Origin: Bryoerythrophyllum caledonicum | Lineage: Eukaryota > Streptophyta > Bryopsida > Pottiales > Pottiaceae | Reading direction: 5' to 3' | Assembly: GCA_963971425.1 (NCBI GenBank) | Contig: OZ020524.1 | Location: 15,813,845 to 15,877,844 of the forward strand | Length of the DNA: 64,000 nucleotides | Shown: piece by piece, positions 15,153 to 59,896 of the stretch | How positions within the stretch are numbered: position 1 is the first letter of the stretch | Layout: each line of letters opens with the position of its first letter | Position numbers and translations under genes: made by a program | Notes under the pieces: generated by a model | Databases searched by the model: none | What the model was told of the DNA's origin: nothing | The model's input: only the letters and a program-made list of their open reading frames with translations

Positions 15153-16239
15153 CTAGTCCCGGGTGATGTTCTCGCCGGGCGCGTTGACATTATCCTGGAT
15201 CGTGGCCGACGCCTCGCCCAAAATGTTCTGGAACACGCCCAGCAGCCCCTTGGCACCCTCCTTGGTCTCCCGCGCAGCGTGGCCTGCCTCGTCCTCCGTG
15301 GCCCTGCCCGCGCGCTCCGCCTCGCGGCCCGCGCGCGACGCCTTGTCCTGCACCTTGTCCCCGGCCTCGTCCGCCTTCACTTTCGTCGCTCCGAGCGCGT
15401 GGCCCACCGCGTCCTTCACCTGCCCCGCCTTCTCCTTCACAGCACTCCCCGCCGCGCCCGCCGTGTCTTGCACCGACCCGGCGAATTCGCCCGCCTTACC
15501 CTTGGTGTGGTCCCACTTCTGCCCGGCCTCCTGCTGCGCCTCCTCCACGCGCGGCTGGTGCGCGCGCGCCGCGCGGTCCGCCTCGCCCTTGATGTCGCCC
15601 GCGGTGCCCTTCACGGCGTCCCCGGCCTCCCGCGCCTTGCCCGTCACATTGTCCCGGGCCTCGCCCGCCTTGTCCGCCACATTGTCCCTGGCCTCGCCCG
15701 CCTTGTCCCTGGCCTCCCGCGCCTTGCCCGACACATTGTCCCGAGCCTCACCCGCCTTGTCCGCCACATTGTCACGAGCCTCCCGCGCCTTCTCGCCCGC
15801 GCGGTCCGCCTCCGACCCAAGCTCGCCGCGCGCGGCCCGCAGCGCGTCCTCCACCTCCTCGTCCGCCGTCTTCACGTGGTACCGCCCGGACGACTGGAAA
15901 CGCCCAGAATCACCCCCGCCGCCCCCCGAGCGGCTGCTGTATGTGTGCTTCTCCTCGTGCGCGCTCGTCTTCGTAGTCACGTCGAACTCCGACCCCTCAA
16001 AGTTCTTCACCTCGCGCTTCGTGTCCGACGCGTCCCGCACGTAGTTGTCCTTGTCGTCATTGCCAGTAGTGGTGGGCACATCCTCAGTCGTCAGCACGTC
16101 CGTGTCGATCTTCTGCGTGATATCACGCTCCGACCCCTCATAGTTCTTCGACGCCTGCAATCAATCCACCATCAGCACCAATGCAACCACACGAGCACCT
16201 CACATCACCGGCCGCATTGGCCTCCAAGCAACTTACCAT
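15153..16239 (-). CDS. Group 3 (LEA_4-type) late embryogenesis abundant protein, two exons
   Basis: Exon 1 is only the start codon (16237-16239), followed at once by donor GTAAGT. Exon 2 is 15153-16154 after acceptor TTGCAG. The product is 334 residues starting MASKNYEGSERDITQKID. It is highly hydrophilic, with no Cys and a single Trp, and rich in Ala, Lys, Glu, Asp and Gly. From about residue 110 it is built of 11-residue amphipathic repeats such as DKAGEARDNVA and GKAREARDKAG, including a local duplication. An N-terminal motif N(Y/F)EGSE.D(I/V)T occurs twice. Proteins of this family are disordered when wet, fold to helices on drying and protect membranes and proteins. GC-rich codon use contrasts with the AT-rich flanks. 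ABRE-like sites upstream suggest abscisic-acid control (inference). The intron placement after codon 1 is the only way to supply an ATG in frame at the conserved-looking start. Confidence 0.88.
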
Positions 16240-23700: not shown

Positions 23701-24072
23701 GCAGATTTTGCAATTTTCTTGAAGCTCTCACATGCAAACTTCACTTGACAACGCCGGACACAGATCTCATGCTTTTACTGTAAGGCTTTTATTTTATGCT
23801 TTCTCCTTTACCACTTTCGGAGGAGCTCTTAGCGCCGGGGTGTTCCGCCCGCCGATTAAATTAGGGTTTTATAATACCTGTGCTGTCTTAACACCAAGTT
23901 CAGAAGCGTGCTGCGGGAGGCGCCTGGCACGGTGTGGCGACGGAGGTTCGATTCGCTTCGGCTCGAGGTGCTTTTTTTAACCTTCACTGTAGTATTCTTT
24001 GTCTTTTACTCTGTCTTCTGACATTTCCAACATTGAAATTACTACTGTAGAGACTGCGCTGCCTACAGTACC

Positions 24073-25161
24073 ATGCCGAAGAAGAGCAAGAAGAAGAGGG
24101 GTGCTGGAGGCTCAGGTGCTTCCTATGCTCGGAACCCTAGCGATGGTGCTGGTAGTTCTGCATTGGACCTCGACGCCATCGGCCAGGGTTTCGACGACCT
24201 CTCTTTAGGTCCCGAGGACGAAGTGGTAGAGGTCGTTTATGTTGAGCCCTCGTTGAAGAGGGTGGAGTGGGTGCCTTTTGGCGCCCCTATTTCTCGGGAT
24301 TGGTTGCGCCGATGTGTGCAGGATGCTCATGGTGCATGGCGGGACCATCTCCCGAGTGGTGTGGAGCCTGCCCATCTCACCGGGCGCTTGATTCCGGAGG
24401 CAGCGCAGTCCTTTGCCGATGTTGCCGTTGGCGAAGGCGTCGTGGTGGTTGAGCTGAAGGAGGGTCACGTGGATAAGGGTCTCGTTGGCCAGCTTGCTAT
24501 GGCAAGTGCCAGTAGATTGACCATGGAGGAGCGATTGGCGGAGATGGAGCGCCGATTTGAGGAGATGGAGCGCCGTTTTGACACGGAGTTGGCCCGAGAG
24601 AGAGAGGCTGCCAACTCGAATGTTTGCAGAGAGATTGAAGAGTTGCAGCATCGCCTACGCATCAGCGAGGAAGATTGCTTAGAGCAGAAGCAGACTATTG
24701 AGTCCGTCAACAACACCATCCAGTCCCTCAGCGACAACCTGCACCAGCTTCAAACCTACATGAAGAAGGGATTGCGGCTTACAAACAACGTCAAGAAGAG
24801 GGTGGCGCTCACCCTTGCGAGGACAGCTGTGGAGACGGCAGTTGGCAGGACAAAGAGTGACAGCGATACATGGTTGGCTTTCATATGTGATTTCTCAGCT
24901 GCAGACTGGAGTGCGGTGGGTGTCACCAAGAAGCTCGTGAAGGACCTCCTTGCCGATGGTGCATATGAATTCAATGATTTAATTCATAATATGCCAGCTG
25001 AGGAGGTGGTCGGGAGTATTGCAGGCATGCAACATGGATCATATCGCAGCGCATGGGAGGAGATTTTCTATATCGCTTTTAAGAAGCGGGTGTCGGACGA
25101 GGTGTTTGTGGAAGAGGTCGACTTTGCAGCACACCAGCAACAAATGTTAGGAGAGTCCTAG
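24073..25161 (+). CDS. Uncharacterised 362-residue coiled-coil protein
   Basis: A single long open frame starts at ATG 24073 in the context TACCATG. The N-terminus is Lys-rich (MPKKSKKKRG), then a Gly/Ser linker and an acidic DDLSLGPEDEVVEVVYVEP stretch. Residues about 150-225 are a coiled coil (MEERLAEMERRFEEMERRF; later IEELQHRLRISEEDCLEQ), and the last 120 residues are a compact helical domain (TWLAFICDFSAADWSAVG; VKDLLADGAYEFNDLI; YRSAWEEIFYIAFKKRVSD). Codon use and lack of breaks support a real gene. I do not recognise a family. The charged N-terminus could be a nuclear localisation signal (inference). It is divergently arranged with USE1 (about 680 bp between the starts), so they could share an upstream region. 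Confidence 0.7.
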   Translation: MPKKSKKKRGAGGSGASYARNPSDGAGSSALDLDAIGQGFDDLSLGPEDEVVEVVYVEPSLKRVEWVPFGAPISRDWLRRCVQDAHGAWRDHLPSGVEPAHLTGRLIPEAAQSFADVAVGEGVVVVELKEGHVDKGLVGQLAMASASRLTMEERLAEMERRFEEMERRFDTELAREREAANSNVCREIEELQHRLRISEEDCLEQKQTIESVNNTIQSLSDNLHQLQTYMKKGLRLTNNVKKRVALTLARTAVETAVGRTKSDSDTWLAFICDFSAADWSAVGVTKKLVKDLLADGAYEFNDLIHNMPAEEVVGSIAGMQHGSYRSAWEEIFYIAFKKRVSDEVFVEEVDFAAHQQQMLGES

Positions 25162-26405: not shown

Positions 26406-27261
26406 GGCTGCAAATAACTCTAGCGAACGGGAGATGGGTCTCGCAAATTCAAGGGCTTTCAATCTGAAATGAGCGCTTCCATCGCCAGGAATTCTTCGAG
26501 ATAAGGTTATGATATCCGAGGTTTTTCTCTTCGTCCCGGCGGGGCCGGTTCGCCCCGGGTATGTGTGTCACTGGGCCAGCTACTATCAGGGCGCCTCTCA
26601 GAACAAGTCTCAGTGACTTGTCGTTGTTTGCGCTGCCTGTGGTGGGTTTTGCGATTTCTCAAGAGATTAATTCCGGCTTTAGCAGCTTGGAGCTCGGATG
26701 GGAATGCGTCAAGGTTCTGATTGCGCGTGGAGCCTGTCTGAGATGCGTGGTGGCGCTTTTCGATGGCAAATCCATGATCACTAGGAGCTGCTGCGGAGCG
26801 TAGGGTTGCGGAGAACATCTATCAACCCTGTGAATCTGGTAGTTTTTCCTCTTTTTTTTTTTTTTTTGGTGGGCGATGGGTTATGGTTGTGTGATTCAAG
26901 CTGTGAGGCGCGTTTGAGGTGCTAGATTGGGTGCAGCGGAGGATGGAAGGTCTGTGCTTAGTTTTCTTGTGTGGACTTAGGGTTGTCTGATTCCGCTTAG
27001 GGTTCAGTAAATTTGATCCGAATTCTAGGATCAGGACGATGGTGGACGTTCCTGTGCTTGGAATTGAAAGAGAGTAACTGGTTGACAGAAATTCTACTTG
27101 GGTCCGGGGTGGTTTGATCCAATTCTCGCTGATTCGTAATTGATGCAAGCACTTGTTAGTATATGGGTTTCTTCACGTGGTTTTCATTTGATGTTTTTCT
27201 GTGCAATGGCTGAGACGGGGGATTCTTTCTTTTTCCTTCTTTCAGAGGAGGAGCTTTGGCT
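26406..27261. other. Divergent intergenic region between PSRP4 and the SANT-ULP1-like gene
   Basis: The two genes face away from each other with about 855 bp between start codons, enough for two promoters. TTTTTCCTTCTTTCAG ending at 27245, 16 bp before the ATG, looks like a splice acceptor, so the right-hand gene may have a 5' UTR intron. Confidence 0.5.
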
Positions 27262-30244
27262 ATGGAAAGTACTGGCGGTGGCGAGGTGGTGCCGTTGTCG
27301 ATGATTCCGCTGCTGGAGGTGGCGTACAGCAAGTGCCAGGAGGAAGAGGGCGGAATGCAGCGGAAGCGGAAACGGTCGTCGAACTGGAGCGAGGCGGAGA
27401 CGCTGCAGCTGCTGGTGCTGCGGAAGGCGCAGCTGCAGCCTGGCAAGGAGTCGAAGGGCATGGCGTGCCCCAAGGGCTCCAGCGCGTGGGACGAGATCGC
27501 TTCGCAGCTCAAGCAGCTCAGCTTCACGCCGCGATCCGGGAAGCACGTCGGCGAGCGCTGGGACACGCTCCGACGCGTCTACATGGACATCGAAGAACAC
27601 TGCTCCAAAACACACCAAACCTACGCCCAAGTCCTCGACGCTAATCGCGACCTCTTCAAGTTCATCCCCTCAGAATACACTCACAAGTGGCATGAACTCA
27701 TCGCCGATTGCAAACCTGGAAAGCGAAGGGGCAAGAAAACCAGCGAACTTCTGCCGAAACCTCAACCTGCACAAGTCTCTCTAGAAGATAATTTCTTCCA
27801 GGTGCCAAATCAAAAATTCTCTGCGGAGGTTGAATTCAGGCCAAGTGACTTAGAAGTGAGTCCAGCGCAGACTACTTCTGGAAAGATTGCGTCTGCGTTT
27901 GGGACGTTGATCAGCGATATCGAGTGTATTCTTTCATGCCGGAAAGATCAGGATAAGTTGAGATGTGCTGATGACAGTAATGGCAACGTTGGAGTAGCTG
28001 ATGCCAAGGTGAAGGTGGTTGCGTCTTTGCAGTCTGTGTTGGCTGCTTTGAAGAGTGCTTCGGAATTTACAAGTTCAGGTAAGTGGTGTATTTTTTTTCA
28101 TTTGGTAGCAGATGTGAAATATGTGTACATTCAGGAGTTAACTGGTTGTGATATGCTTCTTTTTCTATGGTTTGAAACCTGGATTGGACATCCGTGTTTT
28201 TTGTTTGGTTTTGGTTTCCAGAGTCATACCTTCTTAAAATAGACAAGCGTGAATTGAATCTTGTGGAGCATAATGTGCGTGCTTTTTCGGAAAGGCAGCA
28301 ACCGAGGTGTGCTTTCATCTGCCCAGTTAAGGATTGTATGACAGTTTTGGCTCTGGAAATCACCTTGTTGAACAGTTTTGGCTTGGTAATTTTGTCTTGA
28401 AGTGACAGAAAAACTTTATGAGAGCCTTGATAATCTATTGTTGTGAGGTTTGTCAGGTTTAATGGTACAGTTGAATCGACCTTCAGGAAGGTCGTGTGGC
28501 CGCCAGATGATTCAGATCCTGTGATTGTCTTACCTGACGATGTGAAGTCTCTAGAGCCGGGAGAGCAGTTGTCTGACAACATTGTAAACTTCTATTTGAA
28601 GTGAGTGACATCTTCTGATCCAAATCAGCACGTACTAATTCTTCCTCAAGTTATTACAGTTGTTTCAATTTCATGAGCAGAGGTCTTAGCTCCAAGACAA
28701 CTATTTGACAATCTAGAGAATTGCTTACTTGTTGCAGACCTTGGCTCAGTCAGAAGCAGAAAATGAACACCTGCTGTGCAAGAAAAAGAGCTCTGGCAGG
28801 CTTGGGCTTAGATTGAATGACTGTTGTTGATCTTTCTTCATGTTACTCCCTCTGAAAATTATATTATTTCCCTTACAATGTAACTTCTTTACTTTCAGTC
28901 TAGGTAGCGGTAGGCCGACCATCTTAGCACATCCGTTTTGTCATCTTGCAGATATCTTCATAGTAAATACACACGAATTCCAGATGTACAAATCTTCAAA
29001 CCTTTCACAAAGAATATTTCGGCTAATTTAAATGCCCTCAAGTATGGGAGTGTACGACAGTGGATGAGAAGCATTTTTTACAAGAGCTATGTTTTGATCC
29101 CAGTTTTTAAAGAGTAAGTCTCTGTACTCCATTGAGCCCTTTTTTTTTCTCCTGCTGGACTCTTCACAAGAATGCCTCAATTCCAAAAGGGCCACCTACT
29201 TACACTTGTGTGTTTCTTGGTTGCGCAAACAATAGGGAACAGTGGAGTCTTGTCATCATATGTTTCCCCGGAAGACCTCTTGCAGGTAACAATCATGAAC
29301 GTGTCCTCTGGTTCTCTCATTGAATTCTGGCTGAGGTTGTGCACAACCAATACTTCCTTTGTGAAAAATAAGATAGTCTTTCTTTCCAGCAAGGTTAACA
29401 TTATAAAGTGGTGTGGGTGTGCAGAAGTATTGGAGTCACGAGTAGTAGCGCCTTGCATTTTGCACCTCAATCCATCAAGACAGAAGGCTCACCGAGATTT
29501 GGAGAGACACATAAGATTGTAACGATCCAATCATGTAGCATCAGCTATTTGTTGTTCGCATGATAATAGGATTCTGACCAGAGTTTCTGGGGGTTATTCT
29601 CACATGTTTGCTGATTGAAGTTTATGGTTGATTTGCAGCATACTGCTCATGGAGTGGACTTGGCAAAGTGGACGCACTTGTGTCCCAAACGAGATATCAG
29701 ATATTCCCTTTCACTCAGTCGTGGTAAGCAGAACTTCACGAAATTGTTTCATTAAAACCTGAAGATAGATCATTAGCCCAGCCCAACCTTGATTTCTGAT
29801 GATTAATCTAGACATCTCCTCTCTAGGCTTCGAAACTGTCCAAATTGCGCATATATTAGAGATCTTCTCACACTAAAACTATTTGCAAAGTGAGCATGAC
29901 CTCTTTTGATGATGTGATGATTTGAAGGTTCCCCAAGAAGGAAATAGCGACGATGCTGGTTTATTCATATTGCAATACGCGGAGCTTCTCCTCAAGAATG
30001 GACCCGAGACCTTCAATCTGGCACAGAGTACAGGCTTCCCCTTCGTAAGTGTACTGGGCTTACATGATGTTTTAGACATCCTCGTTCCATCTCTTTGGTC
30101 ACATGATTCTAATGTTGCATTTGCATGTCACAACAGCTCACAGATTCATGGTTTGGACCAGCTTCCACTACTGCCATGGCGATGCGGACGAGCATCAGGC
30201 AGGTTTTGCTGGACATGAAAGATCAAGAGGCGGCCCCAGGCTGA
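27262..30244 (+). CDS. Myb/SANT-like (trihelix-type) protein fused to a ULP1/SENP-like C48 domain lacking all catalytic residues
   Basis: Nine exons join in frame with GT-AG borders: 27262-28078, 28222-28306, 28457-28600, 28952-29113, 29236-29285, 29425-29518, 29639-29723, 29928-30044 and 30137-30244, giving 553 residues. Residues about 39-107 form a trihelix/SANT-like unit with W42, W76 and W100 and a basic lead-in (QRKRKRSSNW). Residues about 310-540 follow the plant ULP1/SENP (C48) fold in order: LEPGEQLSDNIVNFYLKYL, RQWMRSIFYKSYVLIPVFKE, EQWSLVIICFPG, APCILHLN, VPQEGNSDDAGLFILQY, LTDSWFGPAS. Active family members have HWSL, ILH(M/L)D, PQQ and DCG. Here the aligned residues are Q405, N435, E483 and A489, so SUMO-protease chemistry should be absent. 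The frame is open and splice signals are sound, suggesting a maintained protein that might bind SUMO or SUMO-modified chromatin factors (inference). The real ATG is 27262. The intron between exons 3 and 4 is the least certain, since a candidate extra exon exists near 28.74 kb. Confidence 0.82.
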
Positions 30245-32487: not shown

Positions 32488-32574
32488 GGTGGAATGCAGC
32501 GATGGCGAGAGTGATGGCAGCGAGAAGGCGGTGTGATGAGCGAGCGAGGGAGGCGATGCGAACGAGGCGCGCCT

Positions 32575-34127
32575 CGGCACTATCTCCCAGTCAAGTTCGG
32601 GGATAGTGCCGCCTGCCCGGCTGCCATAGCTGCCCGTCTCTCCTTGGCCCTCCTACGCTCCCAGACGCTCCCTACGCTCCCAAAGTCTCACCGAGCCTTC
32701 CCGCTTCTTCCTGCTTAGAAGTTACTCTCTCCTTCCTTCGCAGCAGCTCTCACTCCGCTCCAAAAACCAGTAACCCTAAAACCCTATGAGTGTTGCGACA
32801 TGTACTCGTGTTATGTATTTGAGATGCAACTAAATATCCTGCCAGAATTGAAACCAAATCGAGAATATGTTACAAAGCCACCACTCCTATCTACAAAAAC
32901 TCGAGCCTTATTACTAATGGACTAACCTCAATGACCTCAATGAGGTGCCAATTGACTCAACCACTCCTACCTCCAAGAAGAACTCTAGTTTCACTCAGAG
33001 GGCGCCGGTGCAATTCGTGTGCAATTCGTGTGCACATCGTGTGATGGGATTCCTACACAAACCAGTGACCCTAAGACCTTGATGCCGTGCACACCACCTC
33101 ATATTGTGCTGCAAATTGTGTGTACATTGTGTAGAAATTGCAATAATTACCATAGAAACTAGTGTCCTTGACAGCCCTAAAATTTGAATGATTTCCTCAC
33201 AGATGTATTTGCAATGCACATCACCTTAAATTGATGTTGAAATTGTTGTGCACATCATTCCATCACAGTGCATGTGATGAAACTACAGAATCAACCAGTC
33301 CAGTGACCCTCACTTTTTCACATTGCAAACTTGAGCATGCATAATTACACATGTGATGAAATAAGTGCTCTTGACACTCTAAAACCTTGTGTGATGTTGT
33401 TTGATTACAATTATGTGCATCTCGAGATGTGTGTACACTTCTTTTTGCCATTAGCGAACTTCTAAATCGCAAAGTGCATGTCATTGGATATCTGCAGAAA
33501 CCAATCACCATGATGTAAATCTTCTCAAAACTCGTGTTCTTTTCTGCTTTCATATGTTATGTACTTGTGATTTGTACTTCAAGTACTTTGAGTACTTTTG
33601 ATTGTCGGTGACCATCACAACGGGGTAGGGCTGCTTGATGGAGAGTAGCCCATGTGAGTTGTGAATACTCCTCTTGTTGCAAGGCGTAATATGAACAGGC
33701 TTTGTTCACGTCGCCCTCCGAGTGAAACTAGAGTTCTTCTTGGACGTAGGAGTGGTTGAGTCAATTGGCACCTCATTGAGGTCAATTCATTAGAAATGGG
33801 ACTAGAGTTTTTGTAGTTAGGAGTGGTGGCTTTGTAACATATACTTGGTTTGGTTTCAATTCTGGCCGGATATTTTGTTGCATCTCAAAGTACATAACAC
33901 GAGTACATGTTGCAACTCATAGGGTTTTAGGGTTACTGGTTTTTGGAGCAGAGTGAGAGCTGTTGCAAAGGAAGGAGAGACTACCGTAACTTCTAAGCAG
34001 GAAGAAGCGGGAAGGCTGAGGAGCGTAGGGAGCGTCTGGGAGCGTAGGAGGCCCAAGGAGAGGCGGGCAGCTATGGCAGCCGCGCAGGCGGCACTATCCC
34101 CCAATTTGACTGGGAGATAGTGCCGCG
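32575..34127. mobile_element. Foldback element, ~1.55 kb, arms ~420 bp, beside the envelope-protein gene
   Basis: The left arm (about 32575-33005) and right arm (about 33705-34127) are inverted copies, more than 85% alike by eye. Ends read CGGCACTATCTCCCAGTCAA inward on both sides, and the terminal 35-40 bp are themselves palindromic (GGCACTATC...GATAGTGCC). Shared internal phrases include TAACTTCTAAGCAGGAAGAA, GAACTCTAGTTTCACTC and GGTGCCAATTGACTCAACCA. The 700-bp centre has degenerate repeats around ACCAGTGACCCTAA and GTGTGCACATC. No coding capacity and no clear target duplication are seen. Confidence 0.75.
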
Positions 34128-34256
34128 GCAAGGCGCGGCGAGGAAGAGTACCCTTGCACCCTAGGCCCTAGGATTGGGCCGAATAATCATTTATTTCTAA
34201 AAATTAGAAGTTTGTCAAAGTGCAAAAAATGTTAAAAAACCTGTTTTTTCACCATG

Positions 34257-34909: not shown

Positions 34910-37344
34910 GCTGACACGTAGACTGGAGGGTCGCGTGCGTGCAGAAAGGGGATGGGTGCGTAAAGGGGGCGAGCGCATACTGTCCGGGCAGGGTGCATAT
35001 CAACAGGGGCCACGCGCATGCTGTCTAGGTTGGGCACGTGTGAAGAGGCAGGGGTTGGGCGCGCCCATGAGTTAGAAGTTAAGATCATTGTAGGCATAAG
35101 CTTCACTCCATCTAACACGAGAAACGGGTCAGGTGCATACCGATATGGATAGGGCGCGTATCTAAATTGGTCGGGCGCTTATCAACAAGAGTCGAGCGCA
35201 TGCGCACTTGAGTCAGGCGTGCATAGGGAGGTTGGGTGCACTCGTACGGGGGTTGGGCGCTTGCGCTCAGGGGGTTGGGCGCGTACCAATAGGGGTCGAG
35301 CGCGCACGCATAGGAGTTGGGCGCGCACGCTTGCAAGATCGCCTATGTGCGCCAATTAAAAGTTGGGATTCTTCTTGGACATGAACTTCACACCACTAAA
35401 AGCATGTCCGCCCCTTGTACGCCAACCCGGCGCAACTATAAATTTCTTAAAGAATTCAAATCCACAAATTCCATCATTTTGACTAATTTCATATTATATA
35501 TTTTCTAGGACAATACACATGATATGTAGAGTATTTATTAATCCGACGCAAGATCATCACAAAACAAAAATATAAGATTAATGGAACATTTATACACATT
35601 TTTTCTTTAGGGATTTCATAAAATTGGTCTATTTTTAATAAATCTTTTGTAATTTTATGATCTACTTGGGGTCCCCAAGTGGCTCAATGGGGGCCCGAAG
35701 TCATCTACTTGGGGTCTCCAAGCGGCTCAATTAGGGCCTCAACTAATCAAAGATTTAGGATTTAGGGTTACAAAGACGTCTTAGGCTTTAGGATTTAGAA
35801 TTTAGGGTTTAGGGTCCCTAAGAGATCTTTTGTTCTAATTTTTTAGCATTTTGAAATCATAGCCATAGAGAATCTTGTAACCGGTACTTCATTTATAAAT
35901 GGCTTGAGTTCTTTACAATCTTATTTCTAATTTTGCTACTTATGTAGGAAAACTAATTAGCAAAGGAAATAAAATGATCTAGAGAAGTAAATTGTAGAGT
36001 GCGTTACCCTTTTCTTTATTTTGTACACTAAGACCAAAATTGTAATGATTCGAATCAATTCAAGAGCTTTGATTGTTGTTTTTAATCCAAATGGTTTATA
36101 TTAATACATTGTACAATGCTATCATTTATGATGTATAAGAATTCTTATTAAATTTCCTTACATACACAAAGTTTTGTTCGATCTCAATGTCTTATAGTGG
36201 TTCAATCACCAAGATTGCATTGCAATGTGATAACTTGCTACATTTGTTGGAGTTTATGGATGTTACTTCAAATATATTTTTAGAACTTGATTCACATCAT
36301 GGATATGAATTTACAAATTTCCAATTTATTAAATTCCACAATTTCATATAACAAAACAAAGAACTTATATTCCATTTACAATCACATTTATTAGTCTATG
36401 TCAACATCTTGTGGCAAACAATGATGTTATTCACTTCATTTCCTCCTCTTTTATTCCCCCTCAAAAAAGACAACTCTTGAATAATTTTATAGTGAAATAT
36501 TTAGGAAACTTTGGAATATAAGCATTCTCTACGTGCATGAATTAAGCATGTAGGAAAAGCATGTAGTTTACTTATGATTGTGTTTGTAGATGACAAGAAG
36601 TACATTCTCATGGCAAAACATTAAAATAGATAAGGAATGCAACTAAGTTTTAAAGAACCAAATTAATGCAACCATTTGGCTTAAAAAAATAATCAAAGCG
36701 CTTGAATTGATTAGGATTATTATAGTCTTTGGCTTAGTGTAAAGAGAGGGATAACGCACTCTACAATTTACTTCTTTAATTGTTTTATTTCCTTCGCTAA
36801 CCAGATTTTCTACATAGGTAGCAAAATTAGATATAAGATTTTTAAGAATTCAAGCCATTTATAAACAAAGAACCAATTACAGGATTCTCCATGACTATGA
36901 TTTCAAAATGCTAAAAAATTAGAACAAAAGTTCAAAGATCTCCCCAAGACCCTATACCCTAAAACCTAAGATGCCTTTGTAACATTAAATCCTAAGATGC
37001 CTTTGTAACATTAAATCCTAAACCCTAAATCTTTGATCACTTAGGGTCCCCATTGAGCCACTTGGGGACCCCAAGTAGATCATAAAATTACAAAAGATTT
37101 ATTTAAAATATACCAATTTTATGAAATTCCTAAAGAAAAAATGTGTATAAATGTACCATTGATCTTGTATTTTTGTTTTGTAATGATCTTGCGTCAGATT
37201 AATAAGTACTCTACATATCATGTGTATTGTCCTAGAAAATATATAATATATGAAATTAGTCAAAATGATAGAATTTGTGGATTTGAATTCTTTAAGAAAT
37301 TTATGGTTGCGCCGGGTTGTCGTACAAGGGGCGGACATGTTTTT

Positions 37345-37880
37345 AGTGGTGTGAAGTTCATGTCTACAATGAACCCAACTTCCAACCCTTACACGCACGC
37401 GACCCTACAAGCGTGCACGCCCAACCCCCTATGCGTGCGCGCCCAACCCATTTAGGTACGCGCCCGAGTCATATTCGTATGGGCACAATCTATATCGGTA
37501 CGCGCTTGACCGATTTAGTGGTGTTAAATGGAGTGGCGCTTATATCCACGATGAACCTAACTTCTAAGGCACGTGCGCGCTCAGCCCCATGTGTGTGCGT
37601 CCGACCCATTTAGTGGTGTTAGTGGTGTGAAGTTCATGTCCAAGAAGAATCCAACTTCCAATCGGCGTACGCGCACGACCTTGCAAGCTTGCACGCCCGA
37701 CCCCTATTGGTACGCACCCAGCCCCATGAGCGCGCACGCCTGACCCATTTAGGTACACTCTCGACCCATTTAGTGGTGTTAGTGGTGTGAAGTTCATGTC
37801 CAAAAAGAACCCAACTTCCAATCCGCGCACACGCGCGACCCTACAAGCGTATGCGCCCAACCCTCTATGCGTGTGCACCC
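37345..37880. repeat. Larger tandem unit (~165 bp) in the right foldback arm
   Basis: GTGTGAAGTTCATGTC followed by AACCCAACTTCCAA and a GC-rich tail (CGACCCTACAAGCGT) recurs near 37350, 37628 and 37791, with a diverged copy near 37530. This explains why the right arm is longer than the left. Confidence 0.65.
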
Positions 37881-42610: not shown

Positions 42611-45600
42611 TGTGGAGGCATACATCGTATGTCTGCTATCACTTTGAATGGCCCATCTCTGACAACACTTTGCATTGCAAATTAGAAGTCGTCCAGGCCG
42701 TGGCCACCGACGCGGTGGTCAACGAAAGCCCGCGATCACGGAGAAATTGCCTTGCTCGCGAGCGTCGTGCCAATCGGAGTGCAGCTCAACGCGAGACAGA
42801 TAACGCCGCACGGTAGACGAGGCGTGCTCGGCAGCTGGAGCAAGAAGGAGAACGTGAGCGGCAGCGGCAGCGAGTGGTGGATCGCCGTGACGTACGCACA
42901 GCTGAGGAACGGCTTGAGGAACTCCGGATTGATCGTGAAGCGCATGCGACTCAGAGGGTGGCTCAACCTGAGGAGCAGGCAGCGGCAGTGCGTGAGCAGG
43001 ATCGACAAGTACATCGAGCGGCACGCGCAGCCAATCCTGAAATCCCTCTTGCGCGGCAAGCATTCAATGCAGCTATGGGTGTACTTCGACATGTCCTTGG
43101 CCGCATGAACATCCGCTGTCGAGCAGGTCCTGCGCTTCACTGGTTGGAGGAGCACGCTGTGGGGCACGGGTCGACAATTGCAGAGCCGCTTTTGACGATG
43201 TGTTGCGACCAAGGAAAGGTCTCGAACATCGAACTGCTGGCGGCGCCGCCTGAGCCTCTTCGGACCCTGCTGAGCAGCCAGACGCCCGTGGCAAAGGCAT
43301 TTCGAACAAACATCCGAGCGTACAATAGCGCTCTGTCGTTCACGTCACTAGGCGCTAAGATTGATGAACGGTTCACACAGGGCGGGGTGTACACGTTCCA
43401 GCTCCAAGGTTCCCTATATCACAGGATGGGAAGCTTACTGCCGGAGGTGGGGGAAGCTCCAAAGTTCTTTCAACTGTACATCACCGACAACAGCACCGCA
43501 CTCGACGGTCGGATGAATGTCTTTGGCAGCCTTGATCAACGGACGATGGCCCAGCTCTAGACCATGCTGCAGGAGTGCAATCCGTATGCACAGGTGTACG
43601 AACAAGTACAACAGCGCATTGCAAACCAGCCTGCACCAGAGCTCGAACTTCGGTTGTTATCTTTGTCGTCGAAAGATCGGCGTCGGTACAACACGCCAAG
43701 AGTCGACGAGATTGGGGGGATCATGGTGGGAGATGGTCACGACGGCAGCATGACTGATCGCGACGTCATTGTCAAGCTCCGTGGAGGACCGCTCCAACGC
43801 CTTTCGGCTCTTCATTCGACATACACTCCGCTCCATTATGTCATGCTCTTTCCTGATGGGCGGCAAGGTTGGACCACAACCATGCCGCTGCAAGGATTTG
43901 AGTATGATGAGGATGCGCAACAGTTCAACAATGTCAATCAAGATGCCGTGCGGGGCCGTGGTGGCGGGATGCGTGTGTCTCAAATGCAATACTACGCGTA
44001 CATGTTGCACCCACGTGAGCGCGACGAGCACATCTTCCTAGCTGGTCGACTACTCCAACAGTACATGGTGGATGGGTGGGCGTGCGCCGAGCAGAACAGG
44101 CTTAATTGGCTTGCGGAGAATCAGCAAGATCTTCGATTTGAGCTGTACTCGGGAGTCATGGACGCTTTGAATGCTGGCGACCACGACGCAGCACAAGTTG
44201 GGCAGCGGATGATTCTGCCGGCAACGTTTTCCGGGGGGGACCGGCAGATGAATCAACTCTACCAAGATGCAATGGCCATTGTGCGACGATTTGGGAAGCC
44301 TGACCAGTTCATTACCTTTACATGCAATCCAAAGTGGACGGAGATCACGGAAGAGCTAGAAGAGCGGCAGACGGCGCAGGATAGGCCGGATTTGGTGGCG
44401 CGTGTGTTCAGCATGAAGTTTGAGGAGCTCATGACCGACCTCAAGGATTGGAAAGTTTTTGGGACTGTGCTCAGATACCCCTGGGTGATTGAGTTTCAGA
44501 AGCGAGGCCTTCCGCACACGCACATCCTGCTGATCCTAGACGAAGATTCGAAGCGGAGAACGGTTGACGAGATCAACTCTGCTCTCTCGGCAGAGATTCC
44601 TGTTCGGGAGACGCATCCGGATGCATACGAGACAGTCACTCATTGCTTGGTTCATGGACCGTGCGGGGCAGAATACCCGAACGCGCCATGCATGGAAGAG
44701 GGAAAATGTACCAAGCGGTACCCAAAGACATTCCGAGAGGAGACAATCGCAGATCATGATGGTTATCCCGAGTACATGCGGCGGGATGATGGACGTTCTT
44801 TTGTTGACTCGATAGGCCGGCGCGTGGACAATCGATGGATCGTCCCACACAACCTCTACCTGAGTTCAAAGTTCAACGCACATATTAATGTCGAGGTGAG
44901 AGGGTGGCCCGGTGTGCAGCAGATCTTTATTTTCATCATTAATGCATCAATCTCACCAATTTTCACGTGTCAGGTGTGTTCATCCATTTCCGCCGTCAAG
45001 TACCTATTCAAGTACGTGTACAAGGGCCATGACCGGGCAACCGTGGTCATCGGGGACGTGAATGAGATCCAACAGTACATTGACGCGCGCTACGTCTCAG
45101 CTCCGGAGGCGGCTTGGCGGTTGTTCAGCTTCAGGATGCACGACCATACACCACCAATCCAACGTCTCCAAGTTCACCTGCCAGACCAACAACGGGTGAC
45201 GTTCAGGGCCGATGGAGACTTGGCACAGGCCGTGAATGCGGAGAGAGTACGGAAGACGACATTGACCCAGTGGTTTGAGGCCAATCGCACAAATTTGTCA
45301 GGCGCATGTGACACCTCATACCTCGACTTTCCATCACGCTTTGTGTGGAACAACTCGAGGAAGGAGTGGACTGTGCGCAAGTGTGGAATGTGTATTGGTC
45401 GGCTTTATTTTGTGAGCCCAAACGCTGGCGAGAGATACTTCATGCGTACACTGTTGACGGTGGTGAAGGGTGCAACAAGTCCAGAGGCGCTTCGGAGGTT
45501 TGAGGATGTCCAACACCCGACGTTCAAGGCGGCGTGCGTGGCGCGCGGGTTGTACAAGAATGACAAGGAGTAGGAGCACTGCTTGCGTGAAGCCGCGTTG

Positions 45601-47361
45601 ATGCATAGCGGAGCACAACTGCGATCGCTCTTTGTAACGATCCTCACCCATGGCCCACCAACGGATCCGAGGCAACTATGGGAGCAATTGAGCGCAAGCC
45701 TGTCTGATGATTGTGCTCATCGGGTTTGTCAGAACGGGGGCTTGCAGAATCCATCCCAACAGCAGATTATCAGCCTTGCCCTCAACCTGATTGCGTAGAT
45801 CCTTCAGAACAGCGAGATGACTCTGGCGGATTTCAACCTACTGGAGCCTGAGTTTGCAATGGAGGAGCTGCAGGGAAATTGGTTCGTGGCCGAGCAGCTG
45901 TCGTTCAACGCTGCAGAGCTGAGGACTGAAGTTGAGCGTGAGGTTGAGACGTTGAACGAGGAGCAGCGGGATATCTACGACCAGATTATGGACTCCTGTC
46001 AACGCGATGTTGCCGACACGATCTTCTTCGTTGATGGCCCCGGTGGGACAGGCAAGACATACCTTGAGAACCTGATCCTTAAGGCCGTCCGAGGGCAGGG
46101 CAAGATCGCATTGGCAGTCGCTTCGTCGGGGATTGCAGCGTTGCTTCTAAAGCTTGGGCGGACGGTACATTCAAGGTTCAAGATTCCGATTCAGCTTAGT
46201 CCCACATCTGTCTGCAACTTCAGCAAGCAAGGCAATCTCGCAGAGACGATTTGCCGTGCAAAGCTCATTCTGTGGGATGAAGCTCCGATGATGAGGAAGT
46301 TTGCCTTCGAGGCGGTGGATCGCACGCTGAGGGATATCACCAATCGTCCCAATAAGCTGTTTGGCGGCATCACATTTGTCATGTGTGGTGATTTTCGACA
46401 AGTCCTGCCAGTGGTGCCCAAGGGCCTCCGGCCAGATATCATTGCAGCATCCATCAAAGAATCTCATCTGTGGAATCGAGTGCACGTCTGTCGACTTCGC
46501 CGGAACATGCGCGCTGTTGTTGGTGAACGCCGTGTGGATTTGGGCAACCGTACATTTCGAGAGTGGCTCTTGGCGTTGGGGGAGGACAAGTTAGAGAAGG
46601 TGAAGGATGACATGATCAGGTGTCCACGGGCGATGATTGTCGGCAATCACACCTTGAATGGCTTGATCAATGCCGTCTATGGAGGAATTGCTGACGTCGA
46701 AGCAAATGCACGCGAGTACTTCAGCGGTCGTGCCATCCTTGCCGCACGGAATGACGACGTTTCGCGGATCAATGCAGCCGTGCTTGACATGGTACAAGGC
46801 GATACGTCTGAGTTTCTGAGCGCAGATAAGGTGGACAGCGAGGATGGTGCCAACTTGATTCCCGTGGAGTACCTCAACAAGCTTGAAATCAACGGATGGC
46901 CACCGCACAAGCTCACGGTCAAAATTGGAACACCGGTCATGCTTTTACGGAACCTAGATCCAACCAGCGGTCTATGTAATGGCACGCGCCTTATTGTTCG
47001 ACGATGTGCGTTGCGGGTGATCGAAGCAGAAGTGTTGACGGGAGATCGTGCCGGTTACGTTGCTTTTATCCCGCAAATTCCCTTGATCAGTGAACAATCT
47101 AGGCTTCTGTTTCCAGTGCGACGCAAGCAGTTTCCGATCCGAGTTGCGTATGCAATGACAATCAACAAGTCTCAAGGGCAGACGCTTCCCAGGGTTGGCA
47201 TTTGCCTCACGAAGAACGTGTTCTCCCATGGTCAGTTGTATGTTGCTTTCTCACGTGCCACGGATCCCGAAAACATCACTGTTCTTCTCGATGCAGAAAC
47301 AGTTGAAGGGACCGAGGATCAACTTATGCGTAACATTGTATACGAGGAGGCCTTGTGCTGA
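42610..47361 (+). pseudogene. Helitron Rep-helicase (RepHel), one frame with four TAG stops and one intron
   Basis: A single frame holds, in order: an Arg-rich N-terminus (about 42650-43050); the Helitron-like N-terminal domain (LHYVMLFPDGRQGW, MLHPRERDEHIFLAGRLLQQ); the Rep nuclease with HUH-type KRGLPHTHIL (His codons 44515 and 44521) and the tyrosine motif KYLFKYVYKG (about 44998); and a Pif1-like helicase with Walker A GPGGTGKT (46036-46059), LILWDEAPM, and C-terminal INKSQGQTL and GQLYVAFSRA. In-frame stops are at 42814, 43558, 45571 and 45796, all TAG. 44896-44973 is a 78-bp GT-AG intron whose removal gives INVEVCSSISAVKYLFKY, the family sequence. Rep nicks and transfers single-stranded DNA; the helicase unwinds it. 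Confidence 0.85.
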
Positions 47362-50232: not shown

Positions 50233-51141
50233 TGTTAACCGGAGATTTAGGCTTGTTACAAGGTCCCGGTAGTAATTTTTTTGAAGTTACTAAGTAGTTA
50301 TGGTTAAAAAGTAAACCAGTGGATGAATCTGGACAGTGGATGAAACTGTCCTGAATTGACAGTGGATGAAACTGTCCTGAATGACAGTGGATGAACTGTC
50401 TGTACTTTGGATGAAACTGTCCGGACCTGGATTCCATCCGGACATCTTTCATCCATTAGGGCAGGTTAGGGTTTGGAGGGGGTAGAGAGCCGCCCTCTTG
50501 GGTTGGAGGCTCACTCTCTCTCTTTCCTCTCTTCTCTTGGTGTGTGTGTGTGTGTAGAGCTCGTAATGTGTTAGACTAGAATGTAGACGTGTGGTTAGAG
50601 AGTTAGGATCTGGAGCTAAATGTGCGGATCTGTAGTTGTAGCGAGTATGGAAGAGGTTTGTGGAGGTTTGAGGAAGTAAAGCATGAATTGGATACTACCT
50701 CTTGCATGTTGGTGTTGGTGTTGTGAATGTGTGAGTAGATCTTGTTGTTAGAAGAGGGTTTGAGTGCAATTTGGTTGTGGGTATTGAAGATCTGGCCTAA
50801 ATGCATCAGATCTGGTATAGATTTAGCTCGATCTACTAAATCCTCATCAAATCCAGCATGTTAGAGTTAGAATCGAGTCCGAATCTGTTATGGGTATGGT
50901 CTGATTTACTGTAATTGGGTACGAAAACTTCAGATCTGTGTGTTAAACGTAAGAAAAACCACAGAAACGAAGTCCCAACTAACCCTCAATTCAGATCTAG
51001 ATTCAGATCTAGGTTGATTCGGAGGTTTTGGATTCAGTACAAGTCAGATCCTTGACTTGTGTCTTATGGCTTGGAACTACAGTTTGAATGAACGTAGAGA
51101 AGATGTTTCACGTAATCTTTGGGTGAAATCCCCATTTAACA
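50233..51141 (+). repeat. 5' LTR of the Ty3/gypsy element
   Basis: It starts TGTTAACCGG and ends CCCCATTTAACA. The upstream (U3) part contains a short palindromic tandem repeat listed separately. From 50647 on it aligns with the 3' LTR. Confidence 0.88.
50316..50440 (+). repeat. 25/26-bp tandem repeat in the U3 part of the LTR
   Basis: GACAGTGGATGAAACTGTCC stands at 50332 and 50358, with variants at 50383 and about 50403. Each unit is a small palindrome (GACAGT, seven bases, ACTGTC). Its position in U3 suggests an enhancer-like array (inference). Confidence 0.8.
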
Positions 51142-51142
51142 T

Positions 51143-51160
51143 TGGCGACCATGCATAAGT
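51143..51160 (+). other. Primer-binding site of the Ty3/gypsy element
   Basis: TGGCGACCATGCATAAG begins two bases after the 5' LTR. The leading TGG is complementary to a tRNA CCA tail. I did not identify the tRNA. Confidence 0.6.
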
Positions 51161-51299
51161 TCGAACCAAGTGGCTCTTGTTGACCCGCAGCGCATGCGAG
51201 CAGAGTTCTGGACGGTAGCCGGAAGCGGCGGATGAAGCGGCAGCAAACCAGTGCCACCAGCTGCAGACACGTACCGACCGGACACAGACAGGCCACAGA

Positions 51300-51870
51300 C
51301 AACCACAGACAGAAGAAGTCCGGCCGAGATCCGGTGATACCCTGCAGTAGAAGAACCGCAGAGACCCTCGCGACACCCTGCAGGCAGCAGTGAAGTTCGG
51401 TAGACGACCCGGAGATACCCGGCTGTAGTCACGTGTAGGAGAGATCCTGTAGATATCCGGTTGAAGGGCAGTCTAGCCGAGATCCGGACGATACCCTGGC
51501 GACCCCCGGTTAGAGTGAAGTCTGGAGGATACCCTGACGATACCCTGTTGGCGTGAGTCCAGAAGATACCCGATGATACCCTGTTCGAGTGACGTCTAGC
51601 AAAGACCCGGACACTACCCTGCAGCAGCAGACCTGCAGAGACCCCGTCGATACCCTACTGGAGTCAAGTCCGGCAGATACCGTGGAGATACCCTGCAGTA
51701 GTGAAGATCCACAAGAGCTTCTGAAGATACCCTGCAACAGTTAAAATCACCAGAGATCCTGAAGATACCCTGCAGTAGTGAAGATCCATCGAAATCCTGA
51801 AGAGACACTGCTCAAGTGAAGTCCGGCGGATACCCTGACCAGATCCTACTGTACAGTCTAGTCCAGAAAT
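51300..51870 (+). repeat. Degenerate GATACCCTGCAGTAG repeats in the element's leader
   Basis: The phrase GATACCC(T/G)G followed by CAGTAGTGAAGATCC-like sequence recurs about a dozen times at variable spacing of roughly 30-60 bp. It lies between the primer-binding site and the first open frame. Confidence 0.7.
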
Positions 51871-51929
51871 GGACAACATTTTTTCAACATTGGTGACGTC
51901 TCTGCAGAATTTGTAGCAGCCCCATAAGA

Positions 51930-52475
51930 TTGACCAAGTCCAGGTGGATGGGGTCAAGGAAGAGCACAGAGTTCAAGAGTGAGGCGCAGCTCCCATTGGA
52001 ACGATCCATTGCGAACTTTGACCATTATGTGGGCAACCGCAGCTACCAGGGCTTGGAGGAGGACGCAACCTTCTATACAGCCCCAAACAGCCCCTCCAGC
52101 TGTGATCATCTCACACTTGAAGACTTTCAGCGGGGCATCCTGCGACATCTGGAGTGTCCAGACTCATATCACCCCCGTCAGAGTCTTCCCAGACCTACCC
52201 CACGGTACAAGGAAACGTCCAGGATTACGGTCCAGGAACTCGAGTTGCACAACTTCCGAAGCCTGCCTTTGGACTCTCCACTAGCACATTCAACGTCTGC
52301 ATCTACACCTCCGCAGCAGAGCAGTAATGCCCCCAATATCCCTACCTATGACACTCGGACCCCTGTCGTGACTCGAGTACTGGCACTGGAACCTTGGAGC
52401 AGTGGTCTAGGTGACGATTATCTGGAGGCGCCAAAGTGCAGCCAACACATGACCAGCTCTGAATCAGAGGACTGA
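51930..52475 (+). mobile_element. Extra open frame in the leader of the Ty3/gypsy element, 181 codons
   Basis: Upstream of gag there is a hydrophilic open frame with Ser/Pro-rich composition (LTLEDFQRGILRHLECPDSY, SSNAPNIPTYDTRTPVVTRV). I recognise no domain. It may be an accessory frame of this lineage or chance. Confidence 0.35.
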
Positions 52476-53899
52476 TCCCACGATAAAAGGGGGATAGTCC
52501 AGTGTTAGTAAGGTAAGTTCCAAATCCAAAAATTCTGCAGTTGGGTTGAATGGAATGGGGATGTTGTTTGGATGATTGTCATCTATGGATGTAAACAACT
52601 ACCAGTAACTGAACGTAGACAGTAACTGGACGTTAACAAAAAAAAAATCTGGACAATTATTGGCTACATCAGTAAGGAATCCAAACAAAACTAGACATGA
52701 ACTGGATGTAACCTGAGATATGTATTAACATCTGGACATTCACAAAAATTAATATGAGAACGTAAAAACCATAAACAGGGAAGAACAAAACAACAAAAAC
52801 AACAAATGTGTATGGCGGGAAGAAAATCAAGAAACGAGAACCTAAATCAGTTGAGAACAGTTAGGGCAGAATGGGGACCTAAAACTCAAACTTGAAATTA
52901 GGTAAGGAGAAAGGGTGTAGCTGGAAATTAGATCCAGACATCCAGTGGAAAATGAACAAAGGAGGATGCAGTGGTTGGACCAGTGTTATCCGAGGAAAAA
53001 TGTTGGCAAAGAATATTTGATGGCGAAACAAATGATCTAGAACCAAGAAAGGACCTAACCTGAATGACGAGCATGTACTACTGACCACTGGTATGAGTGG
53101 GGTGATCTGGGTGTAGAAACAGGACAGTGGCAAAAGACCAGACCAGGTGCAGGTGACAAAGGCAGTACCGGAGGAGGTAACTAACTGGAGGACCACACAC
53201 TGGAGTACTGGAGATGCGCACTACTGGAGTGATACAACAGAGAAGTCATAACATACAGGGGCAACACTTGCTACAGGATGGAGGGAGACCATGAAGGTCT
53301 GGACATGGAGCTCGCAGCAAGATTCCAAGCATAGCAAGAGAAGAGACGAATTCTACCAAGGATTCACGAGCAGAAAGCAGAGGCAGAGGACACTACAGGG
53401 TACTGGAACCCAAGCTCAGAGGAGAGTACGGCAAACTGGAGACATCCAGTCGACATGGAGGTGATTGGAGAAAATTCATCACAAGAGGCAGACGAGTTGC
53501 CCAGAGAAGACCAGACGGACTTGGAGATCCAGGAGAGCTCCCGATCCGGACAAGGCAGGACAACAGAGAAGTAGAGGGAGCACCAGAGATGAACCGGAGG
53601 GACTTTGGAGTCCACAAAGGCACACTCCACCACCAATGGGAGCCGGTTCATACAAATGTCAGCATGTTGGTCAATGATCCAGACCCAAAAGAGAGGATGG
53701 ATCCCCGAACATGGGACAGACCACCAACCCCAAGGTATGAAGCTCAAACTCCTGACAATCTCCGTGCTAGTTTGGATGAGATGAGCCAGAGGTTGGGACA
53801 GGGATACCTTTAGAGATATGGTCCAGAGCTCGGACGTCCAGGACCAGACCAGTACAGGGGCGATCAAGGATTACCACCAGTACGAAGGACACCAATAGT

Positions 53900-55700
53900 C
53901 CACTTCAAGGAGGAGGACGATTTTGACCATGATCTAGAGTTCATTGTTGAACAAAGGCGCATGTTAGATGAGTTTAAGGCTCTACAGAGGGCGGAGATGG
54001 AGGCAAGACGCCAAAGGACACGAGGAGGCCCAGTACAACCGCACCGAAGAGAGTGGGACTACCAGACAAAAGCTGGACCTGAACTCCCGGAAGCCATGAG
54101 GTTACTGCAAGAGCAGACCCAACGACAAGATGTAGAGAAGACATGGCAGGAAGAGCAACGACGGTTGGAGGACCAGAGGGTTGCAGACATTCAAAGGCGG
54201 AAGGACGAGGCCCGACAGCAGACTTTCCAGTGGTGGGAAGCATGGCAGAGTGCAGCGGAGCCATCAACGGCAGCACCACAACCAGACCCGTTGGGAAGAT
54301 GGAGACATTTCCCAGAGACCGGCCCTACAGAGCGGCTGGGAGACTCATCCCGACAACCAGGCCCGGAAGAATGGGGATACATGAATCGGCGGCCTTCCAG
54401 GACAATGGGAGCCACGCCAACGCCCAGACCCGACGACAGGGGCGCAGGTCCAGGAGGTCCAGTCCATCCAACTGGAACATTACCAAGGGCACCGGAACCG
54501 GTGCACTACAAGGAGCAGCCGTATGTGGGTACGTATCCTACGGTCTACCCACCTCAGGTCGTTATACCAGGACCTAGATCCAGGGCTCCAGAGTTTGTAC
54601 GTATGGGCCCACCCCCGGGTTTGGCTCCAAAACCAAGCTCCAGTTATCCACCAGTGATAGACGACAGACCGTTGCCGCCTGGAGAGACCACGTACAGAGG
54701 ATCCATTCGGACGTATCCTCCACGAGATTACTCAGCTGGACCCCCAGCACCAGCTCCAGTTTGGCGAACCGCAGCACCCTCGACGGTAGTACCGAACAGG
54801 AAACCCCTGACGTACACCAAGAACAAAGAGGGGAGTAATCCAGACGCTCACATACTCCAGTTTGAGAGGACATTGTGGCATAATGGAGAAACCGACGAGC
54901 AAGTGATCATCAACTTGTTTGGGACTACTTTGGGAGACAAAGTTGGAGCCTGGTATAAAACATATCTGGAGAATCACCTGTACTGCTCATGGGCTGACAT
55001 CAAGGCGGCATTCCGAAAACGCTACCGGAGCCAGACTACCGATGAAGCCGTCTACAGGGAACTGAAGTCCTTCGCATAACAGGCGGGAGAAAAAGTCCAG
55101 GATTACTATGACCGGTTCATGACATTGATGAAATGTCTGTAGTCGGATCCAGGAGAGGGCTTCCGAATAACTAACTTCAGAACTGGACTCTTGGAGTACA
55201 TCAAGTTCACCACCAGCACTGCTCCGGCCAGGACTTTGACAGAGTTGCTGGATGCAGCACTTCGATGCGAGGAGAACTGTTCGGACCTGAATGGTAAAAC
55301 AACAGGCATGGAGATTCGAAGAAACGACTCCAGTGGCAAGGGTGGAGGCACCACGAGTAAGGCGGCCACTCCAGAAGCGCCCAAGAAATTTTGCACCCGC
55401 TGCAAACGTGCAGGATATCTGGAGCCCGATTGCTGGTTAAATCCCGATAATCCACAAGGACTGTCTCGAAAAAACACGGAGGGAGCATCAGTGAATGTAA
55501 ATGAAGTCTGGATCCAGCCTGAATCAGACCAAGGCCCACAACGAATTCTTCCGGAAGCTACTCCAGAGCGGTGTATTCGTGTGTTGGAGGTGGCGACTCC
55601 AATTATAACAGGCCAGAGGTTTGCCACTTATGCGGTCAATCGGGACACCGGAGATACAACTGTCCGTGCAGGAAGGAGTGGGAAGAGTTTCTAGCCACGA
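53900..55700 (+). mobile_element. gag region of the Ty3/gypsy element (fossil)
   Basis: A charged helical N-terminal part and Pro-rich middle are followed by a retrotransposon gag domain (DAHILQFERTLWHNGETDEQ; VGAWYKTYLENHLYCSWADI; AFRKRYRSQTTDEAVYREL) and a CCHC zinc knuckle (CHLCGQSGHRRYNC). The family's Gag packages the element RNA. Confidence 0.85.
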
Positions 55701-58700: not shown

Positions 58701-59896
58701 CTCATATCGGGAGTGCTGCACAAGAGGGGGCAGGATCTGGTTATCCGTCGAGTACTGGACCCCGGTCAAGCCGAACTGGTGATGCGGGAGTTACACATGG
58801 GGATTGGAGGCGGCCATTTTTCACTAGACATTATTGCACGAAAGATTCTGGATGCTGGATATTGGTGGCCACCATACACAAAGACGTATCGGAGTATTGT
58901 CGGGCTTGTGACAAATGTCAACGGGTGGGAGGGATGACCACCACGGAACTTGCTCCACTTGTTACCAGCATGCCCGCGGAGCCCTTCATGAAGTGGGGAC
59001 TGGACTTTATTGGACCCATCAAACCCATGGCGTCCAGATCAGGGTGTCGGTACATTTTGGTGGCAACCGATTACGCTACCAAGTGGGTTGAGGCTCGGGA
59101 CTTGCGAACGAACTCTGCTGCAGTCACTGCAAGATTTCTGTATGAACAAATATTGACCAGGTACGGGTGTCCTTTGGCACTTGTCAGCGACCAAGGTTCT
59201 CACTTTATCAATGAAGCAATTGAATATCTGGTGGACCATTTTCTCCTCCAGCACCGAACTTCTACAACATACTATCCACAAGGGAATGGTCAAGCGGAAT
59301 CAACCAACAAGGTGATTGGCCAACTCCTTACGAAGTTGGTGAATGAGAAGCGCACGGAGTGGGACGAACATCTCCATACCGTGTTGTTTTCCTACAGAAC
59401 AGCATACAAGGTGTCAACTGGACATACACCATTCCAGCTGGTGTATGGCTTACATCCGATGATGCCCACAGAGTACATAATTCCAACCCGGACATCGGAA
59501 GGATCTCTGGACTATACAACTACACGGGTTTTGATAGCTCGGATTGCAGATCTGGAGCAGGTAGACACTTACCGGACAGTGGCCCAGGAGCAGGTTGGCA
59601 AACGGCAATGGGACCGAGCACTCTGGAGTCAGCAACATTACAAGCAGAAGGACTTCCAGATTGGAGATCACGTTTTATGGTTCCCAAAGGGCCACAAGGA
59701 GCACACCGGTAAATTCAAGAGCCGGTGGTTTGGGCCTTACCGGATCCAATACAGATTACCGAACAACACCACTCTTCTGGTGAAGGTGGACAACTTTGAG
59801 CCAAACCCAATTTTGGTCAACATCAACAAACTCAAGCCATATAGGTTCTATGAGACCAACCAGACATCCCCAGTTCTTTCGGATGACTCAATCTAG
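55700..59896 (+). mobile_element. pol region of the Ty3/gypsy element (fossil)
   Basis: Domains in order: aspartic protease (LLDGGSGVNLITEEERKRLG, about 56.33-56.70 kb), with the usual DSG replaced by DGG in the visible sequence; reverse transcriptase (WLSPIVIVPKKNGKLRICID, about 57.2-57.95 kb, with a YIDDF-like fingers/palm stretch downstream); RNase H (HTDASNIVVGVMLAQ, about 58.15-58.53 kb); integrase with zinc-binding H2C2 region and catalytic core (GLDFIGPIKPM, ATDYATKWVEA, SDQGSHF, about 58.78-59.87 kb). The domain order assigns it to Ty3/gypsy. Confidence 0.9.

Follow-up and report, generated by a model that had tools for sequence, protein, structure and literature searches.

The 64,000-nucleotide stretch of the genome of the moss Bryoerythrophyllum caledonicum analysed here (the window) contains a gene for a ULP/SENP-like protein in which other residues occupy the catalytic positions of the SUMO proteases. 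This raises the question whether the domain is a protease in decay or is maintained for a function other than cleavage, and what that function might be. A first-pass annotation, made from the letters of the window alone, had opted for a maintained pseudoprotease, and its claims were followed up by computational analysis.

Structure of the gene

Rebuilt from the window DNA, the gene spans 27262-30244 on the forward strand, where nine exons give 553 codons and every intron is of the GT-AG type; the 553 open codons, nine exons and sound splice sites of the first-pass annotation were thereby reproduced exactly. The interval it had named, 29236..30044, covers exons 5-8, but the remainder of the nine-exon gene lies outside it. 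Exon 1 (27262..28078) encodes the start Met, a trihelix (Myb/SANT-like) domain at residues 40-118, a basic tail and a variable linker, and is followed by exon 2 (ESYLLKIDKRELNLVEHNVRAFSERQQP; 28222..28306). The ULP-like domain begins in exon 3 (28457..28600), with the Pfam match starting at residue 338, and continues through exon 4 (28952..29113), exon 5 (29236..29285), which carries Q405 and W406, exon 6 (29425..29518), exon 7 (29639..29723) and exon 8 (29928..30044). The C terminus and the stop codon are in exon 9 (30137..30244).

A tenth, 5' coding exon (MITRSCCGA...) at 26774..26799 of the same strand, spliced to 27246, probably belongs to the gene, because its translation matches the start of a protein of the moss Ceratodon purpureus (P0001, see below). 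The junction AGC/GTAGGG ... TTTCAG/AGGAGG is in frame and yields MITRSCCGAGGALAMEST, and the N terminus of the Ceratodon protein is MITRSRGGGASNMES. The exon would add MITRSCCGAGGALA, for which the counterpart in Ceratodon is MITRSRGGGASN. On the reverse strand, an open reading frame at 26094-26567 matches Pfam RPS31 with 48.4 bits against a cut-off of 32.5, a ribosomal protein and perhaps a plastid one; since this frame is divergent from the gene and near its 5' exon, a promoter region common to both is possible. A tblastn search with the protein model found no second copy of the gene in the 64-kb window, and Rfam and tRNA scans of the whole window were empty.

A trihelix domain and a ULP-like domain with a replaced active site

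Two Pfam domains were found in the window protein, both above their cut-offs: PF02902 (Peptidase_C48) at residues 338-510 with 39.7 bits (cut-off 20.7) and the trihelix family PF13837 at residues 40-118 with 38.4 bits (cut-off 27). The trihelix domain had been absent from the first-pass annotation. The best matches of the ULP domain among solved structures were to SENP7. A profile search with the exon-1 part matched no PDB chains, and a phmmer comparison of Ceratodon P0001 with the GT-1 chains 2jmw and 2ebi gave a weak match (E 0.016-0.017). A structure model had a mean pLDDT of 50.5 and a pTM of 0.43, with ten-residue blocks between 48 and 90 across residues 391-630.

The protein reads EQWSL at 404, ILHLN at 431, PQEGN at 481 and DAG at 488, which confirms all four replacements reported earlier (HWSL to EQWSL, ILHxD to ILHLN, PQQ to PQE and DCG to DAG). 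In the HMMER alignment to SENP7, Q405 (codon CAG, 29240..29242) stands opposite the catalytic His, N435 (AAT, 29469..29471) opposite the Asp, E483 (GAA, 29937..29939) opposite the Gln of the oxyanion hole and A489 (GCT, 29955..29957) opposite the catalytic Cys. SENP2 gives the same correspondence, except that the chain in the alignment carries Ser in place of the Cys. The substituted codons all lie within exons, that of Q405 beginning at base 5 of exon 5. The triad is reported to be kept in all Arabidopsis ULPs (PMC6117582, in excerpt). Judged from its sequence, the moss domain is homologous to Peptidase family C48 but would not be an active member of it.

A second moss has the same domains and lacks the triad

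A protein search with the window protein gave 18 matches. One was a full-length homologue, eight matched the trihelix part, and another nine were C48 proteins from other organisms. The sole full-length homologue found, P0001 (hypothetical protein M758_10G052100 of C. purpureus), shows 71% BLASTP identity over 99% and 80% MAFFT identity, and has both PF13837 and PF02902 above cut-off, the latter with 46 bits. An orthologue with an intact triad was looked for, and the one full-length homologue (1/1) also lacks it: Leu, Asn, Gln and Ala occupy the four catalytic positions, compared with Gln, Asn, Glu and Ala in the window protein. When the ULP part of the Ceratodon protein was used as query, the region search returned a single match among 970 candidates, which was the query itself.

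Conservation between the two mosses differs by segment. Identical residues amount to 110/123 in the trihelix part, 37/85 with 8 indels in the linker, 52/54 in the segment before the ULP domain (residues 247-300, in support of exon 2) and 152/173 without any indel in the C48 region. The C48 region thus differs from the linker (Fisher p = 1.6e-13) and not from the trihelix part (p = 0.72), a pattern which, at the level of sequence, is consistent with purifying selection acting on a domain that does not catalyse. Differences from Ceratodon do not cluster significantly at or near the catalytic residues (2/4 catalytic, p 0.07; 4/20 nearby, p 0.27). As the inactive state is found in Ceratodon too, and the C48 region has remained free of indels while the linker has diverged, the domain appears to be an old, maintained pseudoprotease, in agreement with the first-pass annotation. 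We consider it very probable that the window protein is maintained in a non-catalytic role.

The notion of four independent losses did not hold up. Asn and Ala are common to both mosses and were probably inherited from their common ancestor, whereas the Gln is retained in Ceratodon, so that its loss came later on the window lineage and can be a consequence of the earlier loss of catalysis. The His site is changed in both species, yet to different residues.

The eight proteins matching the trihelix part (P0002-P0009) show no ULP exons and therefore say nothing on the active site. Seven of them diverge right after the end of exon 1 (T(S/N)SG), as expected of genomic DNA read into intron 1. In the remaining one, P0002 from another moss contig, exons 1 and 2 are contiguous without the intron and the sequence departs from the gene after exon 2. 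This junction suggests transcription in a relative of the window moss, and the departure is perhaps a retained intron. A search with a ten-sequence alignment, in which 8000 candidates were scored under a cap, gave at least 12 matches, of which three were new and covered the trihelix part only, namely P0019 and the more distant P0020 and P0021 (about 40% identical). Scans of the viral_contigs and genome_contigs sets found no relatives. Exon-1 identity of the window gene to any of the nine other sequences is at most 0.74.

The putative SUMO-binding surface

The C580S catalytic domain of Ulp1 binds SUMO, with a preliminary Kd of 12.8 nM to SUMO1; D451 of Ulp1 forms a salt bridge with SUMO, and D451N abolishes the two-hybrid interaction of that domain with SUMO (PMC3216068, in excerpt). 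The position of D451, an equivalence derived from aligned ranges, is retained as D341 (28575..28577) in the window protein and also in Ceratodon.

W406 is likewise retained in both mosses. Together with an aromatic residue at position 338, it makes up what we take to be the pair lining the Gly-Gly tunnel in the Ulp1/SENP structures. The pair is incomplete in the mosses, both of which have Gln at the partner position (Q338, 28566..28568; Trp in SENP2) and Ser (S340) in place of the next conserved Asn. In Ulp1, N450S is one of three temperature-sensitive mutations that jointly reduce the septin-ring enrichment of the C580S domain; its two-hybrid signal with SUMO rose nonetheless (PMC3216068, same excerpt).

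Among 76 columns in which at least eight of nine other homologues agree, 33 are altered in at least one of the two mosses, and the binding face may thus have been reshaped for another partner. An insertion of 30-87 residues after FPG, present in nine SENP-like relatives, is absent from the window domain.

ULP loci of the same genome

In the assembly that contains the window (437,360,962 bases, 894 contigs), 25 exon-level matches to PF02902 were found, and 20 loci covering 24 of them were fetched, the match at C4:23807180 being left out. Twelve of the 20 (L009, L010, L015, L017, L018 and L022-L028) are ULP2-like with an intact His exon (HWSL) and Cys exon (P(Q/R)QxN..DCG). The His pattern demanded His and is blind to loci in which it is changed, and the Cys pattern admitted Ala and Ser. 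The motif ILHLD was present in 8 of 16 loci searched (L009, L010, L015, L017, L019, L022, L023 and L024) and was unmatched in L018, L025-L028, L014, L020 and L021, so that for several copies with a trihelix (L018, L025-L028) "intact" refers to His and Cys and not to Asp. L011 and L012 have a ULP1-type appearance with HWCL and DCG, L013 and L016 are of other types on a partial reading, and only some exons were seen in L014, L019, L020 and L021.

Two splice sites, placed by consensus, recur in the window gene and in all five loci compared (L009, L010, L015, L024 and L025): a donor following FY(L/I/V) and an acceptor immediately ahead of the Val of VPQ. These two common intron positions indicate that the window domain is a relative of the ULP2 type. 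The position of the pseudo-ULP relative to the named ULP2 subfamilies is poorly supported in the trees: the window gene stands on a long branch in the ULP tree, with values of 0.16 and 0.84 (FastTree) and 50 and 65 (IQ-TREE) at the adjoining nodes. The trihelix tree pairs the window with Ceratodon (0.87).

A trihelix match lies downstream of the ULP exons in 8 of the 20 loci, in one open frame with the Cys exon in L018 and L025-L028 and in a following frame in L017, L023 and L024. When six frames from these loci were submitted to Pfam, those of L026 and L027 not among them, L025, L018 and L028 were above both cut-offs and L023, L017 and L024 had PF13837 in a separate frame. These loci thus have the same two domain types as the window gene, with His and Cys intact, but in the opposite order. 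The trihelix domains compared share only about 22-27% identity with the one in the window protein (25/113 to 30/110 in four of six aligned pairs), and from this low identity the two trihelix-ULP associations look independent.

The ULP2-trihelix fusion genes exist in several copies, some of them clustered on contigs C4 and C8. Asn (LSNN or LGNN) occupies the position equivalent to Ulp1 D451 in L018, L022, L023, L024, L026, L027 and L028, whereas L025 has Asp there, as does the dead window gene; the copies with Asn may have a preference for a different SUMO form or a different modifier. L014 and L019, about 0.21 Mb apart on contig C11, are near-identical ULP2-type copies when compared with L010. 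Unlike L010, they show no Cys exon within the fetched stretch and are possibly truncated duplicates.

Proposed function and alternatives

The explanation we favour, and consider probable on balance, is that the moss protein combines an N-terminal trihelix domain with a ULP2/SENP6-7-type domain devoid of catalysis and serves as a DNA-tethered SUMO binder that does not cleave. Tethering to DNA is likely, as predicted from the trihelix domain. Putative binding of SUMO or another ubiquitin-like modifier, which is argued by analogy, is more tentative and falls a little short of an even chance. The predicted DNA binder would place the protein on nuclear DNA, and the dead ULP domain would then hold SUMO or sumoylated partners uncut, like the laboratory Cys-to-Ser form of Ulp1. 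At its target genes, the protein would read or shield SUMO, the shielding possibly directed against active ULP2 proteases, some of them trihelix-bearing themselves. The functional picture thus changes from that of the first-pass annotation through the trihelix domain missed there and the intact, partly trihelix-fused ULP2 relatives.

A more elaborate scenario is improbable as a whole. Mosses would have joined trihelix and ULP2 twice, once as DNA-targeted active proteases (ULP2-trihelix, multi-copy in this genome) and once as a dead trihelix-pseudoULP (found in Ceratodon too). The dead protein would then read SUMO at particular loci and shield conjugates there from the active fusions, the two forming an on/off pair at chosen genes.

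The strongest rival to a non-cleaving SUMO binder, although rather unlikely, is that the dead ULP fold is a scaffold only, which has lost SUMO binding and provides a dimerisation or protein-interaction surface to a trihelix transcription factor. The loss of the tunnel aromatic and the adjoining Asn in both mosses and the 33 altered columns would suit this reading, and scaffold roles are documented for pseudo-DUBs (PMC10919355, in excerpt); it is opposed by the retention of D341 and W406 in both mosses and by a C48 region without indels.

A decaying duplicate that is open by chance is very unlikely. The catalytic residues are gone and the branch of the window gene in the ULP tree (0.125) is longer than that of Ceratodon (0.023), but the trihelix tree shows the same imbalance (0.122 against 0.012), so that the longer window branch is not special to the ULP part. 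Moreover, nine exons are intact, and the equally dead domain of the second moss has been conserved next to a linker which has not. Slightly less likely still is hydrolysis of SUMO or another ubiquitin-like modifier by means of other residues. Some supposed pseudo-DUBs were later reported to be active (PMC10919355, in excerpt), but here the nucleophile, the general base and its partner are missing in two species, and the exchange of Gln for Leu at the His site between them is unexpected for a working site. An artefact of sequencing, assembly or splice modelling can practically be dismissed: the nine-exon model was drawn by hand from genomic DNA without RNA-seq, but the codons lie inside exons and Ceratodon independently has Asn and Ala at the same positions and no His.

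Relation to known systems

The window protein differs from the ULP2-type SUMO proteases (human SENP6/SENP7, Arabidopsis SPF1/SPF2 and the bryophyte SPF-like proteins) in lacking the triad and in bearing an N-terminal trihelix; the likeness to SPF1/SPF2 and the SPF-like group is drawn from published descriptions. Among the plant ULP groups described in PMC11371177 is an SPF-like one that comprises bryophyte, lycophyte and fern proteins; section 9 of that paper names no dead ULP, and its main text does not use the word trihelix. The literature searched, outside which most subscription papers and preprints fall, yielded neither a natural, conserved SENP/ULP of plants that is dead nor a fusion of trihelix and ULP domains.

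The laboratory SUMO traps, region 3 of Ulp1(C580S) and KmUTAG, are likewise ULP domains minus the nucleophile, and the moss domain has the same salt-bridge Asp as Ulp1. These traps are engineered single mutants, whereas the moss domain is natural and lacks three or four catalytic residues as well as the tunnel aromatic (PMC3216068 and PMC5774762, both in excerpt). Pseudo-DUBs resemble the moss protein in that they are related to deconjugating enzymes but catalytically dead, and they are retained in scaffolding or regulatory roles. They belong to the ubiquitin system, however, and the excerpted text names no dead SENP/ULP among them (PMC10919355). Among plant SUMO-protease relatives, the nucleophile is also missing from two DeSI isoforms, rice DeSI1 and a Polypodium DeSI2, which have no catalytic Cys; they are reported as single-species cases and belong to a different protease family, C97 (PMC11371177, in excerpt).

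With the trihelix (GT) transcription factors the window protein has PF13837 in common. These factors usually carry activation or dimerisation parts, in place of which the window protein has a C-terminal dead ULP domain. The stronger story is probably one of architecture: a predicted DNA-binding domain sits on a dead SUMO protease, and the same genome also encodes putatively DNA-binding SUMO proteases that look active. Should the dead domain read SUMO and the trihelix set the address, the protein would represent a locus-specific layer of SUMO control of transcription in mosses and the natural equivalent of the SUMO trap engineered from Ulp1.

Other features of the window

Downstream of the gene are two nested inverted-repeat (foldback-like) elements at 32571-34129 and 35366-37376, with arms 84-96% complementary. 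A Helitron with a Helitron_like_N domain followed by a PIF1 helicase, in two long open frames, occupies 43561-47358 of the forward strand. An LTR retroelement at 50644-60726 is bounded by 300-nt direct repeats (50644-50943 and 60427-60726, 96% identical), between which reverse transcriptase, RNase H and integrase matches are found. Upstream, an exon matching cellulose synthase (PF03552, 237.5 bits) lies at 375-1031 of the reverse strand, and a late-embryogenesis-abundant-like frame at 15153-16157 of that strand has internal 33/87-nt repeats and an LEA_4 match under the cut-off. At 24037-25161 of the forward strand, an open frame of 374 codons without a Pfam match contains short internal repeats.
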